From NCBI GenBank assembly GCA_002862095.1, contig PHSQ01000004.1, positions 244,261 through 308,260 on the forward strand: a stretch of DNA of 64,000 nt. Direction: 5' to 3'. Source of the DNA: Methylocystis sp. KS32. Lineage in GTDB: Bacteria; Pseudomonadota; Alphaproteobacteria; Rhizobiales; Beijerinckiaceae. How positions within the stretch are numbered: position 1 is the first letter of the stretch; the number at the start of each line of letters is the position of its first letter. The position numbers and the translations under genes were made by a program. This document shows positions 3,039 to 49,870 of this stretch, piece by piece. The notes under the pieces are model-generated. The model worked only from the letters and a program-made list of their open reading frames with translations. It searched no databases and was not told the origin of the DNA.

Positions 3039-3704
3039 TCACACTGCCTTCGCCCCCGGCGTGTCGCCCTTTTGATAGGCGGTGCCGAACGCATAGTCCC
3101 ACCATATCGCGTGTACGCCAAAGCCCTTGGTCGCGTCGCGGAAGTGATGCAGCATGTGCAGCCGGCGCACGAGATGGCCCAGGCGGGACTTGGGTTGTCC
3201 GTGATGGGTCCAGTAGTGGACGCAGTCGTAAATCACATAGCCGATCATGAAGCCCGCCAGGACAGGCCAGGCGAAGGTTGCGCCAAAGAGCAGCCGGATG
3301 ATCGACAGGGCGATCAACATGATGGGACCCGACAACAGCGGCGGCATCACGAGGCGCAGCGGATCGTTGGGATAGATGTGATGCACGCCGTGGATGAGAA
3401 ACTGAAAGCGCGGCCCAAGCCCGAAGGGCAGGGGGAACACGGTATGAAAGAGGAATCGGTGGCCGAAATATTCGGTGAGAGTCCAGGCGAGATAGCCGAC
3501 GAACAGCCCCAGCGCCACGATGCCCGGACTTTGTAGCGTCAAGGAGAAAATCAGCAGGCCGACGACGATCGGAGTATAGACGATAATGGGCGTGAGATGA
3601 TGCACGCGCGAAAGCTTGTCGAGCAGATCGCTGTCGAACAGGCGGGGCGAGGCGCTCAGCTGGTCGGGGGCCGGGCCATTGGCATTATTGGCTTCGAAAC
3701 TCAT
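3039..3704 (-). CDS. FA2H/Scs7-like fatty acid hydroxylase (membrane di-iron)
   Basis: A membrane protein of about 221 residues in the fatty acid hydroxylase / sterol desaturase superfamily. The histidine motifs are complete: EYFGHRFLFH, FLIHGVHHIYPNDPLRLVMPP, YDCVHYWTHHG and HMLHHF followed by GFGV....WDYAFGT. The HGxHH..P.D..RLV.PP and GFG...WD..FGT patterns match fatty acid 2-hydroxylase (FA2H/Scs7) better than sterol desaturases. The cytochrome b5 domain of the eukaryotic enzymes is absent. It is the last gene of a minus-strand operon, 4 nt after the DEGS-like desaturase. From this context I infer hydroxylation of a ceramide or of its acyl chain; the substrate cannot be read from sequence. 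The ATG at 3704 is preferred over an upstream in-frame start that would run into the desaturase gene. A carotenoid- or hopanoid-related hydroxylase remains possible. Confidence 0.85.
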   Translation of the reverse strand: MSFEANNANGPAPDQLSASPRLFDSDLLDKLSRVHHLTPIIVYTPIVVGLLIFSLTLQSPGIVALGLFVGYLAWTLTEYFGHRFLFHTVFPLPFGLGPRFQFLIHGVHHIYPNDPLRLVMPPLLSGPIMLIALSIIRLLFGATFAWPVLAGFMIGYVIYDCVHYWTHHGQPKSRLGHLVRRLHMLHHFRDATKGFGVHAIWWDYAFGTAYQKGDTPGAKAV

Positions 3705-3708
3705 GGCC

Positions 3709-4701
3709 TCACTCCGCCGGTTGAGCGACGACGTCTGTCGCGTGAGCCGCATGTTCGACATTCTCCGAGCGCGTGCTCAGGGAATATCTTGGATCGAAGA
3801 TGAAGGTCACCAGCAACGCGACCCAGGACCGATGGCAGCCCAGCGTGTCATAAAATTCGGGCGCCATCGCTTTCAACCGTGGCAGGCGCGTCCAGGGGAT
3901 CTCGTGAAAGTCGTGATGCTCGTTGTGATAGCCGATATTGAGCGCCAGCGTGTTGAGTGGGCCATAATAATCGAAAGTGCCCTGATCCGGACCGAAAGCG
4001 AAATGCTCCTGCAGCCAGCGGGCGCTTAACGGATGTAGTCCGCCGACCGAAAACCAGAACGAGAGGAATAGGTAGAGCAAAGCGTTGGGGCCGAAGGCCC
4101 ACAGCACCAAAATATCGAACACGACGATGATGGCGATGTTGATATAGGTCCACTTTCCCATGATCGGCACCGTGCCCTTCAGGCGCGAGAGGCGGGCGAG
4201 TTGTATGGCGGGAAAGAAAAACAGCCACAAAGCCTTGCGCCACGCGCTGTCGCCCACGAACGCCACTTCCCATCGGCTCGGCACGTCGGCGTCGTAATCA
4301 TAGGCCGAAAGATGCGAATGGTGCTTGATATGGTAACAGCGAAAGCCCATGGCCGTTGGAAAGCCATTCGACAGATCGGCCAGGATCGCATTCAGCTTGT
4401 TGAGAAGATTGCTTTCAAAAACGCAATTGTGAATCGAATCGTGAATAATGACGAAATTCGCGTGATTGGCGAAGGCGCCGACGCAGATGGCGAAAAGAAA
4501 CGTCAGCGGCCAATGCGCCAGTCCCAGCCAGCCGAGGAAGGCGGCGATCGCTATCTGGACGGCGAAAATCGCGACCGTGATCTTGAACGTAATTATATCT
4601 CGTCCGAAGAGATCGCGGACTTGCGGATATTTCTCAAGGATCGCCTTGCGCCGCTCGATGTGCGAGCGATCCGCGCCAGAGCGGGTGACCGATATCGTCA
4701 T
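3709..4701 (-). CDS. DEGS1-like sphingolipid delta-4 desaturase homologue
   Basis: A 330-residue membrane fatty acid desaturase. The three His boxes are HDSIH (87-91), HIKHH (124-128) and HNEHH (259-263). The surroundings are strikingly like eukaryotic dihydroceramide desaturase DES1/DEGS1: HHSHL.A.DYDADVPS after box 2, a GLHPLSARWLQEH segment near 221, YYGPLN near 245, and GYHNEHHDFHEIPWTRLP with a downstream PEFYD. By family knowledge, DEGS1 puts the delta-4 double bond into dihydroceramide, using electrons from cytochrome b5 or ferredoxin. No electron donor gene lies beside it here. It sits between a ceramide-synthase-like GNAT gene (29 nt upstream) and a FA2H-like hydroxylase (4 nt downstream), which supports a sphingolipid substrate by inference. 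The start is ATG; several hydrophobic helices flank the boxes. Confidence 0.88.
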   Translation of the reverse strand: MTISVTRSGADRSHIERRKAILEKYPQVRDLFGRDIITFKITVAIFAVQIAIAAFLGWLGLAHWPLTFLFAICVGAFANHANFVIIHDSIHNCVFESNLLNKLNAILADLSNGFPTAMGFRCYHIKHHSHLSAYDYDADVPSRWEVAFVGDSAWRKALWLFFFPAIQLARLSRLKGTVPIMGKWTYINIAIIVVFDILVLWAFGPNALLYLFLSFWFSVGGLHPLSARWLQEHFAFGPDQGTFDYYGPLNTLALNIGYHNEHHDFHEIPWTRLPRLKAMAPEFYDTLGCHRSWVALLVTFIFDPRYSLSTRSENVEHAAHATDVVAQPAE

Positions 4702-4730
4702 GTCTTTGCATTCCTTGGTTTCGCCCCCGA

Positions 4731-5870
4731 TTACAGGCGCTTCTCGTAAATGCGATGAATCTTGTCGACTTTTCCGCCGAACATTTCGATGGGGCGGCGC
4801 ATCGCCATATTATCCTCGAGCACCCAACCGGCCTCGATCTTCTCGAGGTCCTTCCTCGCCGCCCGACGGTGCATCTCCTCGACGATGGCGAGCAGGATCG
4901 CGCCCCCCGTCGAGCTGCTTTGCAACTCCTTGCGCGTGCCAAGCAGCAGAATTCTGCCGGTCTTGTATTTGTGCTTGCGAAACCTGGAAATGACGCGCGC
5001 GAGGCCGAACGGCAGCAGGCGTCCGTCGAGATCGCCAATGATTTCGAAGAGGTTGGGCAACGCCACCGCGAAGGATTTAGGCTCGCCGTCGAGTTCGACG
5101 ACCAAAGTGAATTCCGGAGGCGTCACGAAGGCGAGCGCATCCGCGATGGAGTCGAACTCCTCCTTGGTGAAGGGAACGAAGCCCCAATTGTCGCGCCAGC
5201 CGTCGTTGAAGAGATCCGACATCAACTGTGTCTCGCCTTTCTTGAGGCGGGAAAAGTCCATCTCGCGGATTTTCAGGCGATCTTTCCATTCCGGGCGGGT
5301 GGAGATGCGCGCCGGCTTGTTCAGTTCCTCGGGAGTCAGTTCGATCATGTAGGAGACGAGATCGCGGGCTTTCGTATAACCGAGCGCTTCGACATGACGG
5401 CTGAGATAGGGCGGATGCCAGGGCGTGAGGAACATCGGCGTCGTCTCGAAACCCTGAATCAACATGCCGCATTCGCCGTTGATCGTGGGCGAGAAGGGGC
5501 CATTGACGCGATCGGCTCCCCGCTCTTTGAGCCAGGTTTCGGCGGTTTGGGTCAAGGCGCGAACGATTTCGATATCATCCACGGCGTCGAGCGAGCCGAA
5601 CTGGAAGCGCGACGCGCCGACGGGCGCGTATTCCGGCTTATAGACCTGGGCGAGAATGCGTCCAACCCATTGACCGTCTCGCCGGGCGAGAAACTCCTGG
5701 GCCTCGACAAGCTTGAAATGCGGGTTGAGCATGTGGCCATGCAGCGTCCAGCGCTCGACGTCGAGCGGGGGCGCAAAACCCTTCGCTCCCGTGTAAAGCA
5801 AACGCGGCAGCTTATTATAGGTCAGGAAGCGCTTTAGACCGGTTGCCGGCAAGATTGCGATTTGCGCCAT
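4731..5870 (-). CDS. GNAT-fold acyltransferase, bacterial ceramide synthase (bCerS)-like
   Basis: A protein of 379 residues. It resembles the long GNAT-like proteins once annotated as 'dATP pyrophosphohydrolase' in alphaproteobacteria; a member in Caulobacter was shown to be the bacterial ceramide synthase that N-acylates the long-chain base. Visible marks are an N-terminal YTGAKGFAPPLDVER segment, GPFSPTINGECGMLIQGF near 125, and a C-terminal half ending in an AGWVLEDNMAMRRPIEMFGG acetyl-CoA-transferase-like segment. The family match is from memory of these motifs, not from a search. The ATG at 5870 was chosen over a TTG two codons upstream. It lies 80 nt downstream of the SPT-like gene and 29 nt upstream of the desaturase, all on one strand, so its proposed role is amide-bond formation between a long-chain base and an acyl group. 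Confidence 0.75.
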   Translation of the reverse strand: MAQIAILPATGLKRFLTYNKLPRLLYTGAKGFAPPLDVERWTLHGHMLNPHFKLVEAQEFLARRDGQWVGRILAQVYKPEYAPVGASRFQFGSLDAVDDIEIVRALTQTAETWLKERGADRVNGPFSPTINGECGMLIQGFETTPMFLTPWHPPYLSRHVEALGYTKARDLVSYMIELTPEELNKPARISTRPEWKDRLKIREMDFSRLKKGETQLMSDLFNDGWRDNWGFVPFTKEEFDSIADALAFVTPPEFTLVVELDGEPKSFAVALPNLFEIIGDLDGRLLPFGLARVISRFRKHKYKTGRILLLGTRKELQSSSTGGAILLAIVEEMHRRAARKDLEKIEAGWVLEDNMAMRRPIEMFGGKVDKIHRIYEKRL

Positions 5871-5950
5871 TTTCAAAGCCTAATGCGGTTCGGTTGCGAT
5901 AAAAGGCGGCATAACAACGCGGCGGCGCCGTCTCCCTCGGGCGGAAGCTT

Positions 5951-7186
5951 TCAGGCTCCCGCCATCGCCGCGGCTACAATCCGGTGCGCCTCCTCCGAGA
6001 CGGGGGGCATTTCCTTAAGCGCGGCGATCACGCCGTTAATCTCGTCGTCGGTGTGATTGGCGGAAATGAAAAAGCGTAAGCGCGGCTGATCCTTGGGGAC
6101 GCCGACCTGAACGATGGGCGGCACATAGAACCCTTTTTCGAGGAGATGCTGCGACGCCCACATGGTCTCGACGCTGTCCTGGAAGAGGATTGGCACCACG
6201 CCTCGGCCGATGGCCGGCCCCGTGGACAGCCCGGCCGCGTTCGCGGCGTCGCGGAAAAATTCGGCGTTATGCGCGAGTTTTCCGATTCTCCAGGTCTCTT
6301 CCTGCATGAGGGCGAGAGCGGTCCGCGCCGCGGTGAGAATGAGGGGCGACAAGCCAACGCTGTAGACGAAACCCGGCAGGGTGTAGCGAAACCAGTCGAT
6401 CACCTGTTTCTTGCCACAGATATAGCCGCCGCAGGAGGCCAGGGTCTTCGACATGGTCCCGACGATAAGGTCGATTCGCGACGGGTCTACGCCCTGATGC
6501 TCTGCGAGGCCGCGCCCGGTCGCGCCCAGGACGCCGAGCGAATGCGCCTCGTCCAGCATCAGCCAGAACTGGTGCTTGTCTCTCAGTTGCAGCAGGCCCG
6601 GCAGATCGCAGGTGTCGCCGTCCATGCTGTAGAGGCCTTCGACCACGACGAGCACATGACGGTATTCCTCGCGATGGCGCGCGAGCAGATGGTCGAGGTG
6701 ATCGAAATCGTTGTGGCGGAACTTTATTGTCTTGGCGTCGGAGCCGTCGGTCCCCGCGACGATGCTGTTATGCGCCAACTCGTCGATGAAAATGGCGTCG
6801 CGCTTGCCCATCAGCCACGAGATGGTGGTGACATTGGCGAGATAGCCGGAAACCAGCGTGAGCGCGCTCTCGTAGCCCAGAAACCGAGCGATTTCCATCT
6901 CGAGGGCCTTATGCGTGCTGCGCTCGCCGCCGACAAGACGGGAGGCCAGCGCGCCGACGCCGAGATTGTCGAGTTCGCGCTTGGCCTCCTCGATGATTCG
7001 CGGGTGATTCGCGAGGCCGAGATAGTCGTAATTGGCGAAGCTGACAAAATGTTTGCCGGCCGCCTCCATTTCTTTTTTCAGCCTGTCGATCTGAGCGAAG
7101 AAGGGGTCCGAAAATTCGAGCAGAGCGTTGCCCGCGAAACGGAATCTGCGCGCGGCGTAGTCCGAGAGGCTTCTGTGCTTGGTCAC
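5951..7186 (-). CDS. spt: serine palmitoyltransferase-like alpha-oxoamine synthase (PLP)
   Basis: A 411-residue fold-type I PLP enzyme of the alpha-oxoamine synthase family (SPT, KBL, BioF, ALAS). Visible residues are DELAHNS (H139, the PLP-stacking His), the LDEAHSLG motif (D212 and H215) and the Schiff-base Lys in GTMSKTLASCGGY (K247). The family condenses an amino acid with an acyl thioester and releases CO2. Sequence alone does not separate SPT from glycine-using paralogues. The adjoining ceramide-synthase-like, DEGS-like and FA2H-like genes make serine plus a long acyl thioester the best inference. The start is a GTG at 7186; the next Met is too far inside the conserved N-terminus. It is the first gene of the minus-strand operon, with a 272-nt divergent gap before tRNA-Ala. 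No 3-keto reductase or dedicated acyl carrier protein gene is present nearby. Confidence 0.82.
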   Translation of the reverse strand: MTKHRSLSDYAARRFRFAGNALLEFSDPFFAQIDRLKKEMEAAGKHFVSFANYDYLGLANHPRIIEEAKRELDNLGVGALASRLVGGERSTHKALEMEIARFLGYESALTLVSGYLANVTTISWLMGKRDAIFIDELAHNSIVAGTDGSDAKTIKFRHNDFDHLDHLLARHREEYRHVLVVVEGLYSMDGDTCDLPGLLQLRDKHQFWLMLDEAHSLGVLGATGRGLAEHQGVDPSRIDLIVGTMSKTLASCGGYICGKKQVIDWFRYTLPGFVYSVGLSPLILTAARTALALMQEETWRIGKLAHNAEFFRDAANAAGLSTGPAIGRGVVPILFQDSVETMWASQHLLEKGFYVPPIVQVGVPKDQPRLRFFISANHTDDEINGVIAALKEMPPVSEEAHRIVAAAMAGA

Positions 7187-7358
7187 TTAGTCTGTCGTCC
7201 CAGGATTGTGACGCCCGGCGGCGCCGGCGGGTCAAGGATAACAGGCGCCTTTCGGCGGCGGGCGCCCAGGGAATGATCGCGCTCCTTAACATTCTTACGC
7301 ATCGCCGCGCCAGTGCGCCGACTTTTCGGACCCGGCGAACAAAATTCACGCAACGGAC

Positions 7359-7387
7359 TTGCGGGGCCGGGCCGGCTCAACTATACA
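7359..7387 (+). promoter_or_regulatory. possible sigma70-type promoter for tRNA-Ala
   Basis: TTGCGG (7359-7364), a 17-nt spacer, then TATACA (7382-7387). It lies about 70 nt before the tRNA, which would leave a leader of ordinary length. Assigned by eye only. Confidence 0.35.
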
Positions 7388-7458
7388 ACCCCCCATCGAG
7401 ATCGGCCACGCCGGTCGCGCTACCGGGCTTGACCCAAAAAGCCGGTAAAAACAAGAGT

Positions 7459-7534
<76 letters not shown>

Positions 7535-7860
7535 AAATCCTCCCCAAACAAGACATTAGAGCAGCGCGGGTGGTTGCGCCTCGGCTGCGCGTGCGCCCGT
7601 CTTATTCAGCTCGGCCTGATTTCCATTCCGCCCCCATCGGCGAAGAATTCGAAGCCGGCCCGGCGTCCCCTCCGCGTCGCGGGCTTTTCGCCACGGCGAC
7701 GGGATGCGGCGGAGATGTTTTCCCAAAGACTTGCTCCGGGAGCAGACTCGGCTTAAAAGCTGCTTGCGTCGACGGGTTGTCCCGTAAGGGCGCTTTTTTC
7801 GCTTGCCCGCCTTCAAGAGGCGTGGCTGCTGCAAAGTCAGAAACCAGGATCGCCCTCGCC
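7535..7860. other. gap between tRNA-Ala and the DUF2232 gene
   Basis: No coding region is supported. A small hairpin ACGGG-TTGT-CCCGT (7772-7785) lies shortly before a T-run (near 7793-7799) and could be a weak terminator on the plus strand. Otherwise nothing is recognised. The rpsF-rpsR genes that commonly precede DUF2232-rplI are not here. Confidence 0.5.
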
Positions 7861-8865
7861 GTGCCCGACAGAAGCGTCTTCAACTGGACCAGTATCGGGA
7901 TTTCGGTCTGCGGCGGACTCGCCGGAGCGGCGGTTTTCGCCGTTTTGACCAAGGGGACCATGGCGGGCGTCCTTCTCGCTCATCTCTCTTCCCTGCCGAT
8001 CGTCATCGTCGCGCTCGGGCTCGGCGTTCGGCACGGCGCGACGGCCGCCATAATCGGGACCGTCGCGCTGACGTTCTGGCCGAATTATCTCTTCGGAATG
8101 ACTTACGGTCTGCTGGTCGCCCTGCCGGCATGGCTCGCCTGCTACGCCGCGGCTGGCGCTCCCTGGGGGCGCCGCGACCTGCTGGCCGCGAATTTGTCTG
8201 GCTGGGCCGTGACGGGGATCTGCGTCGCCCTAATCCTGGGGATTGTTTTCTTCCTCGGGCTGACGGCCTTTTCGCGTGGCGCCATCGACGAGCCGCTGTC
8301 CTACATTCAGGGGCAGATTTACTTCACGGTCGACGCCCTGATGAAAGAGCACCAGGCGGGCGAGGGCGTGACGACCGAACAACTGGCGCGCTTCGTGCAG
8401 TTCTTTCTGCCCGCGATCTTCGCGACCTATGGTCTGTTGTTGCATGTATTCAATCTCTGGGCGGGAGGGCGTCTGGCGCAAATCTCGGGGATGCTCAAGC
8501 TTCCCTGGCCGGACATAGCGGCGGATTTCGTCTTGCCGCGCGCCGTCGGCGTCATCTTTGTGCTTGGCGCCGTTTTCGCCGCTATCGCGCTTACGGACGG
8601 CCTCGCCCTCCTGAAAGGATTCCCAGGCGTCGCCGCGCTGGTCGTCTCGTCGACTCTCGGGGTGGCGTTGGGCTTTCAGGGTTTGGCCGTCATGCACTAT
8701 TGGGCGCGCGGTTCGAAGTCCGGCGTGTTGACGCTATCGATCCTCTATTTCTTTCTCGGCGTGCTTGGCGTGCCGATGATCCTGCTTACGCTGCTTGGCG
8801 TCGCCGATATGGGGCTGCATTTTCGCGAGCGAAAATCCGCCGCGCAGGCGGCCGACAGCCCATGA
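7861..8865 (+). CDS. DUF2232 multi-spanning membrane protein
   Basis: A polytopic membrane protein of about 334 residues, with eight or so hydrophobic segments (for example around VVIALGLGVRHG, LILGIVFFLGLTAF and FVLGAVFAAIAL). It resembles the DUF2232/YybS-type proteins that sit just before rplI in many alphaproteobacteria; function unknown. The frame is open back through the tRNA, so the true start must lie after 7534. I chose GTG 7861, which leaves a short tail before the first helix; an ATG at 7960 would lose that helix. rplI follows after 38 nt. The fit to the family rests mainly on context. Confidence 0.72.
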   Translation: MPDRSVFNWTSIGISVCGGLAGAAVFAVLTKGTMAGVLLAHLSSLPIVIVALGLGVRHGATAAIIGTVALTFWPNYLFGMTYGLLVALPAWLACYAAAGAPWGRRDLLAANLSGWAVTGICVALILGIVFFLGLTAFSRGAIDEPLSYIQGQIYFTVDALMKEHQAGEGVTTEQLARFVQFFLPAIFATYGLLLHVFNLWAGGRLAQISGMLKLPWPDIAADFVLPRAVGVIFVLGAVFAAIALTDGLALLKGFPGVAALVVSSTLGVALGFQGLAVMHYWARGSKSGVLTLSILYFFLGVLGVPMILLTLLGVADMGLHFRERKSAAQAADSP

Positions 8866-49794: not shown

Positions 49795-49870
49795 TGGCAG
49801 GAGTGGCAGGGCTCGAACCTGCGACCCCCGGTTTTGGAGACCGGTGCTCTACCAATTGAGCTACACTCCT
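49795..49870 (-). tRNA. tRNA-Trp (CCA)
   Basis: 76 nt with encoded CCA. Acceptor stem AGGAGTG pairs with CACTCCT with discriminator G. The anticodon stem CCGGT/ACCGG encloses CTCCAAA, so the anticodon is CCA, reading UGG. D and T arms are canonical. It lies 63 nt upstream of proB on the same strand; the common neighbours secE and nusG are absent. Confidence 0.97.

Follow-up and report, generated by a model that had tools for sequence, protein, structure and literature searches.

Can a methane-oxidising bacterium build ceramides with tailoring enzymes that resemble those of eukaryotes? The question is raised by four adjacent genes in a 64,000-nt stretch of the genome of Methylocystis sp. KS32 (contig PHSQ01000004.1, positions 244,261 to 308,260; hereafter the window), which an earlier note had compared to a bacterial ceramide pathway. 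The genes encode a serine palmitoyltransferase (SPT)-like alpha-oxoamine synthase (AOS), a GNAT acyltransferase of the bacterial ceramide synthase (bCerS) type, a DEGS-type desaturase (DES) and an FA2H-type fatty acid hydroxylase (FAH). We find that the observation was right and that the ceramide reading is probable; the SPT label has to be qualified, since the enzyme belongs to a different AOS lineage. Judged from sequence, there is a good chance that in this pmoA-bearing methanotroph genus the operon supplies a sphingolipid with its ceramide core, and that a second locus completes the pathway; the best reading of the genes is a mosaic, eukaryote-like (gluco)ceramide pathway.

A conserved gene block in a methanotroph genus

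All four open reading frames (ORFs) are intact and lie on the minus strand in the order SPT-like, GNAT, DES, FAH (Table 1). The FAH frame opens at 3761, overlapping DES, and the ATG at 3704 is its likely start; with this start and the ATG at 5870 for GNAT, the intergenic gaps of 80, 29 and 4 nt given in the earlier note are borne out. The same block, on a single strand and 4.1–4.7 kb long, was found in all 17 genus loci fetched, which were drawn from the 36 genus genomes, KS32 among them, that have a desaturase match. Because the gene order is kept and the gaps are short, the arrangement suggests an operon.

Table 1. Genes of the predicted operon, in window coordinates.
Gene	Position	Strand	Basis
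SPT-like alpha-oxoamine synthase, non-canonical clade	5951..7186	-	Aminotran_1_2, PDB matches, tree, pyridoxal phosphate (PLP) Lys247 in GTMSK
GNAT, bCerS/YghO family	4731..5870 (ORF opens 5876; ATG at 5870)	-	YghO homology, tree
DES, DEGS-type membrane desaturase/hydroxylase with Lipid_DES	3709..4701	-	PF00487 and PF08557, histidine consensus, tree
FAH, FA2H/Scs7-type fatty acid hydroxylase	3039..3704	-	PF04116, Scs7 match, Foldseek, invariant histidines

DES is present in 36 of 37 genus genomes and the SPT ortholog in 27 of the 28 searched, the same genome (G023, 89% complete) being the exception in both cases. Outside the genus, a strong DES match was obtained in one genome (G055, 50%) among 24 from other families of the order, five more giving E 1e-9 to 5e-4, and at E≤1e-30 in one of 384 other genomes of the class draw (G401, two copies); none of the three same-family genomes listed in that draw has it. 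Because the Pfam AMO family (pmoA) was detected in 21 of 28 genus genomes, KS32 included, and in none of the 18 genomes of other genera searched, the host genus is, by this distribution, a methanotroph. KS32 itself holds two pmoA copies with equal scores (C3:199279 and C6:918014).

The acyltransferase, the desaturase and the hydroxylase

The GNAT stays below every Pfam cut-off (17 of 20.7 bits), as does E. coli YghO, which has no Pfam match either, and it was identified by its homologues. It is 36% identical to YghO of E. coli BL21 (254 bits), whose gene lies beside those for a fatty acyl-AMP ligase, an epimerase, an acyl carrier protein (ACP) and spt; PMC9386255 lists this gene as aca, which in the dihydroceramide set encodes the acyl-CoA N-acyltransferase. 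In an unrooted tree, from which eight near-duplicate loci were left out, the window GNAT groups with E. coli B YghO and the GNATs of canonical sphingolipid clusters (95/99) and is sister to the GNATs of L234 and L252 (100/99). It thus is in the bacterial ceramide synthase (CerS/YghO) sequence group, in agreement with the earlier note, and N-acylation of a long-chain base is its predicted reaction.

DES scores above the cut-off for both FA_desaturase (PF00487; 76 bits, cut-off 29.7) and the N-terminal Lipid_DES domain (PF08557; 34.9 bits, cut-off 23), and the latter domain likewise exceeds its cut-off in all ten further bacterial DES proteins that were scanned (lowest 24.4). The motifs GLHPLS, GYHNEHHDF and YYGPLN, from which a DEGS1-like desaturase had been proposed, are all found in the translation, and the eight-histidine consensus HxxxH, HxxHH, HxxHH (H87/H91, H124/H127/H128, H259/H262/H263) is invariant across 26 sequences. 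We consider DES to be of the DEGS type, with a predicted C4 desaturation or C4 hydroxylation. A search of the PDB gave no relative at E≤1, and the best Foldseek matches of the predicted model are weak (FtsHi-motor chains at E 7e-5 and 1e-3; AlkB at 0.05) and contribute little.

FAH matches FA_hydroxylase (PF04116) with 53 bits (cut-off 31) and aligns with the solved Scs7 over 195 residues, histidine motifs included (86 bits); its model (mean pLDDT 77) superposes on Scs7 4zr0 with a Foldseek E of 6e-8 and a TM of 0.77, and its histidines are invariant across 17 sequences. The di-metal histidine motifs and the fold thus point to an FA2H/Scs7-type enzyme, as had been claimed, and 2-hydroxylation of the N-acyl chain is predicted. 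The protein is 35–40% identical to the aligned Verrucomicrobial and Bacteriovorax FAH sequences (100–154 bits) but reaches only 20–45 bits with other FAH-type proteins, including those of canonical alphaproteobacterial clusters.

The joint function proposed in the earlier note gains support from the recurrence of the set. A DES profile scan of genome contigs gave at least 570 relatives. Of the best 80 loci, which include that of the seed genome itself, 25 hold an SPT-like gene and 16 hold members of all four families (tblastn, flank of up to 10 kb, shorter in some loci). The four-gene loci carry the record titles Verrucomicrobia, Acidobacteria, Bacteriovorax and Gammaproteobacteria, some of the DES records being metagenome-assembled, so that misbinning is possible. 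By the record titles of the sequences in the DES tree, the bacterial DEGS family occurs in some eleven phyla. In that tree, which contains no eukaryotic DEGS sequence and from which 22 near-duplicate loci and one match below 100 bits were omitted, the window DES falls in a clade (100/99) with SPT-linked DES of Verrucomicrobia and Acidobacteria, a few Bacteroidota and L024, and the SPT-linked label requires at least six changes. DES and FAH are adjacent and in the same order in the Verrucomicrobial L083, and the genus may have acquired the pair by transfer; this idea is weakened by L024, which comes from the same order (G055) and is the sister of the window DES (93/92), the alphaproteobacterial L025 standing apart.

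Two of these clusters differ in their further content. L083 and other Verrucomicrobial loci show the order DES, FAH, SPT, CDP-alcohol transferase, GNAT, which suggests phospho-headgroup ceramides with the same tailoring. In the Bacteriovorax locus L062, SPT, GNAT and a CerR-like gene lie on one strand, genes for a PAP2-type phosphatase and FAH on the opposite one, with DES some 5 kb away. In the sphingophosphonolipid of Bacteriovorax stolpii, the base is 4-hydroxylated and the acyl chain 2-hydroxylated.

A second locus and the proposed pathway

That a reductase and an ACP are missing, as stated in the earlier note, is true of the window, but an ACP and an RkpH-like short-chain dehydrogenase/reductase (SDR) are found elsewhere on the same contig, in a second locus (C3 at about 49–55 kb, the operon being at about 247–251 kb). 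Its gene order, ACP, ketosynthase (KS), hotdog, MaoC, SDR, glycosyltransferase family 21 (GT21), GT2, was the same in the three genus genomes fetched (KS32, L287; G005, L288; G010, L289). The SDR is 45% identical to that of L169, a locus with a polyketide synthase (PKS), and 36% to that of L234; SDRs like the latter were found in 19 of 19 genus genomes searched. SDRs form a large family, and we regard this one as a candidate ketoreductase. GT21 matches Glyco_transf_21 (PF13506) with 150 bits and a solved ceramide glucosyltransferase with 124 bits over 357 residues, most of its length, and GT21 homologues lie within 4 kb of DES in two of the best 80 DES loci (L046, where the assignment is by Pfam, and L067). 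Beside the GT21 locus, at L287 10002–10897, two ORFs seem to share what reads as one member of the fatty-acid-hydroxylase superfamily; one piece scores 25.7 bits to PF04116, below the cut-off, and the stretch looks decayed.

The enzymes of the canonical pathway were sought as well. A genome-wide search for CerR, suggested in the earlier note, gave no match at E≤1e-6 in KS32, while the canonical CerR of G040 and G042 was detected as a control (30–31%), and a CerR-type reductase in this genome is rejected; weak matches occur in 7 of 16 genus genomes (best E 4e-9, 23–34% identity). Likewise, no AasR was found at E≤1e-20 in KS32, while AasR was detected in the same two control genomes at 45 and 43%; relatives at 28–37%, mostly open frames of about 950–1050 aa, occur in 13 of 18 other genus genomes searched. 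For AcpR, the search covered the surroundings of the operon, and none was found there.

From the gene content, homology, trees and synteny we infer a set of reactions in which the operon and the second locus would work together. AOS would form a 3-keto long-chain base from an acyl thioester and an amino acid, for which L-serine is the most likely candidate, and the RkpH-like SDR would reduce this product to the long-chain base. N-acylation by GNAT would then give a dihydroceramide, although N-acylation and reduction could follow one another in either order, as in Caulobacter, for which passages of PMC11324152 treat this order as not settled. DES would act at C4, by desaturation or hydroxylation, FAH would 2-hydroxylate the N-acyl chain, and GT21 would probably add a hexose to give a hexosylceramide.

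The alpha-oxoamine synthase and competing explanations

The SPT-like label given to the first gene holds in part. The protein matches Aminotran_1_2 with 159 bits (cut-off 19.7), and GTMSK with K247 and DEAH (residues 212–215) are present as had been read. K247, D212, H215 and H139 align with the same residues in 3a2b and E. coli B SPT and are common to the other AOS sequences aligned as well, which places the protein in the AOS family. By score against the PDB its identity is ambiguous (SPT 3a2b, 222 bits; E. coli KBL 1fc4, 220 bits). Grouping with KBL or BioF, which had been named beforehand as refuting the label, is not seen: the identities BioF (347 of 426 bits), KBL (292 of 460 and 251 of 493 bits) and HemA (245 of 339 bits) are all rejected, each with a separate clade in the tree. 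At the same time it lies outside the clade of canonical SPTs, which includes 3a2b and Bacteriovorax (99/94), and forms a clade with L234 and L236 (100/99). It thus represents a different AOS lineage, and we propose that the enzyme is a serine palmitoyltransferase.

The first AOS tree comprised 61 of 76 sequences, 15 loci, mostly near-duplicates, having been removed by eye from identity tables and L168 left out for an ORF above the 2000-aa limit; a second tree was built from 58 picked sequences with 3a2b, KBL and BioF references, and a topology (AU) test from 35. Overlong ORFs were trimmed to the homologous part beforehand, and the omissions from the GNAT and DES trees were likewise chosen by eye. 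A union of the genus with canonical SPT that excludes the PKS-linked clade is rejected (AU p 2e-54). A wider clade of the genus, canonical SPT and the PKS-linked sequences is not (p 0.16; with Verrucomicrobia, p 0.32), and for this reason a shared SPT ancestry of the genus AOS and canonical SPT is possible.

Outside the genus, the nearest relatives of AOS include L234 (G394) and L236, and those of GNAT include L234 and L252. L234 holds an AOS of the genus-type clade together with an SDR and a GNAT. Three family mates of G394 (G218, G086, G316) each carry a canonical-type SPT (L265, L266, L269), while G394 has three AOS at E≤1e-35, namely the window type, L274, which falls apart from canonical SPT, and a third that the tree does not include. 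Neither of the two placed AOS is canonical. These findings hint that the AOS types can substitute for each other.

Several observations weigh against the ceramide reading. The SPT-like protein reaches no NCBIfam SPT equivalog (SPT-BetaP, 296 of 500 bits, where canonical SPT L171 scores 588), its best NCBIfam model is bioF, and its clade with L234 and L236 is sister to 12 AOS encoded beside type I PKS (joint clade 100/98, and 100/100 in the second tree). The SDR and GT21 lie about 190 kb from the operon and are tied to it by family and conservation alone, and GT21 also matches the hopanoid enzyme HpnI at 151 bits, short of the cut-off of 310. SCD1 is a poor match for the DES model (Foldseek E 0.3), and DES stands alone within the flank in 48 of the best 80 loci. 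Of the 55 DES loci with no SPT nearby, the genomes of 34 were searched together with 14 control genomes: an AOS at E≤1e-50 to the SPT-CFB model occurs in each of the 34, but also in 8 of the 14 controls, which makes an AOS as such uninformative; 24 reach at least 437 bits, which counts in favour of the ceramide reading, although the threshold was taken from a gap in the list and set without a control distribution. The SPT-CFB cut-off (640) was passed in 4 of 34 versus 1 of 14, and the other 10 genomes, at 332–367 bits, fall where SPT and other AOS are indistinguishable (canonical L171, 334). Finally, the literature searched holds no sphingolipid report for this methanotroph genus, which is not proof of absence.

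The alternative that survives best, although we think it unlikely, is that AOS acts like its PKS-linked sisters and makes a special amino lipid that carries or anchors a surface polysaccharide, with GNAT, DES and FAH tailoring that lipid rather than a membrane sphingolipid. Besides the tree, this would account for the presence within the PKS-linked AOS loci of an RkpH-like SDR (8 of 13) and a KpsS-like gene (7 of 13), for the bCerS-like GNAT between AOS and SDR inside the PKS/KpsS locus L235 (G219), and for the ACP, KS, dehydratase-like and glycosyltransferase genes of the second locus. Yet the 20-kb region surrounding the window operon (L175) holds no type I PKS, KpsS homologue or capsule gene, the AOS, SDR and GNAT of L234 stand together with no PKS in its 20 kb, L236 likewise has no PKS in the 20 kb seen, and in other phyla DES and FAH are paired with SPT-like genes from different clades. 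A ceramide-like product is compatible with this explanation too, which therefore partly overlaps the ceramide reading. G219 also holds, about 6.5 kb away, a canonical SPT cluster with a further GNAT (L253).

We give still less weight to the use by AOS of alanine, glycine or cysteate, which would lead to 1-deoxyceramides or sulfonolipids. The amino acid cannot be read from the residues compared near the PLP site, the enzyme is phylogenetically distant from canonical SPT, and passages of PMC11334938 describe many 1-deoxyceramides from the Black Sea; against this, a homologue of ceramide glucosyltransferase such as GT21 would be expected to need the C1 hydroxyl. That DES and FAH instead modify bulk fatty acids, carotenoids or hopanoids, their place beside an acyltransferase pair being incidental, is highly improbable, as DES matches carotenoid hydroxylase and ketolase models with only 30 and 25 bits (cut-offs 475 and 350; a carotenoid enzyme is rejected), whereas Lipid_DES exceeds its cut-off, FAH matches Scs7 and the DES-FAH-SPT-GNAT neighbourhood recurs in unrelated phyla.

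A tRNA-Ala (GGC) lies just upstream of the operon on the plus strand (window 7459–7534). Because it falls inside the long ORF 7273–8865, the first part of that ORF is probably noncoding. A tRNA-Trp (CCA) is located at window 49795–49870.

Significance

The ceramide reading predicts glycosphingolipid-type membranes in a methane-oxidising genus and offers a testable case of non-orthologous SPT replacement. More tentatively, and with somewhat more doubt than conviction, we suggest that a PKS-type AOS displaced the canonical SPT/AcpR/AasR/CerR module, that the resulting pathway, with relatives of bCerS, DEGS, FA2H and glucosylceramide synthase, would yield hydroxylated glucosylceramides, and that the bacterial DEGS family marks many unrecognised makers of modified sphingoid bases. 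Together, DES, FAH and bCerS would form a gene set by which bacteria that make sphingosine- or phytosphingosine-type ceramides could be recognised. The bacterial DEGS family is also relevant to the origin of the eukaryotic enzyme. Bacterial lipids of this kind might be taken for eukaryotic in environmental lipid data; the passages of one such study, PMC10667739, that we considered name no methanotroph ceramide.

Comparison with known systems

The canonical rhodobacterial pathway of Caulobacter and E. coli B (aasR, cerR, acpR, spt, cerS) shares with the window an AOS as its first step and a GNAT N-acyltransferase of the same tree group. It differs in that the window AOS is in another clade, that canonical AasR and CerR were not found in KS32 at the thresholds above, and that the window operon includes DEGS and FA2H types. 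According to passages of PMC9386255, spt in Rhodobacteria, whenever present, co-occurs with ACP and acyl-CoA-synthetase-like genes, and according to passages of PMC11324152, bacterial cerS always lies in another operon than the de novo genes. Because the window departs from both generalisations, as far as these passages state them, a separately assembled pathway fits. Passages of PMC11324152 also give a DesA-family enzyme as the suggested hydroxylase of the ceramide acyl chain in Caulobacter. In passages of PMC7179689, alphaproteobacterial sphingolipids are said to appear restricted to Sphingomonadales.

The PKS-linked AOS loci of alphaproteobacteria are alike in AOS clade and in the RkpH-like SDR type, and differ from the window operon, which has DES and FAH and no type I PKS or capsule gene nearby. 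We take these loci to resemble rhizobial rkpA/rkpG/rkpH/rkpJ.

Among the eukaryotic enzymes, DEGS1/DES2 resemble DES in the Lipid_DES domain and the three histidine boxes, FA2H/Scs7 resembles FAH in its fold and histidines, and UGCG is similar to GT21 over the length aligned. FA2H and Scs7 have a cytochrome b5 domain, whereas the 240-aa FAH has no second domain over the Pfam cut-off; the window genes moreover stand in a bacterial operon, in which a GNAT replaces the eukaryotic-type ceramide synthase. The Verrucomicrobial cluster L083 has an SPT-like gene of another clade and a CDP-alcohol transferase gene in addition, but it shares all four gene families with the window, and in both DES and FAH stand side by side in the same order.

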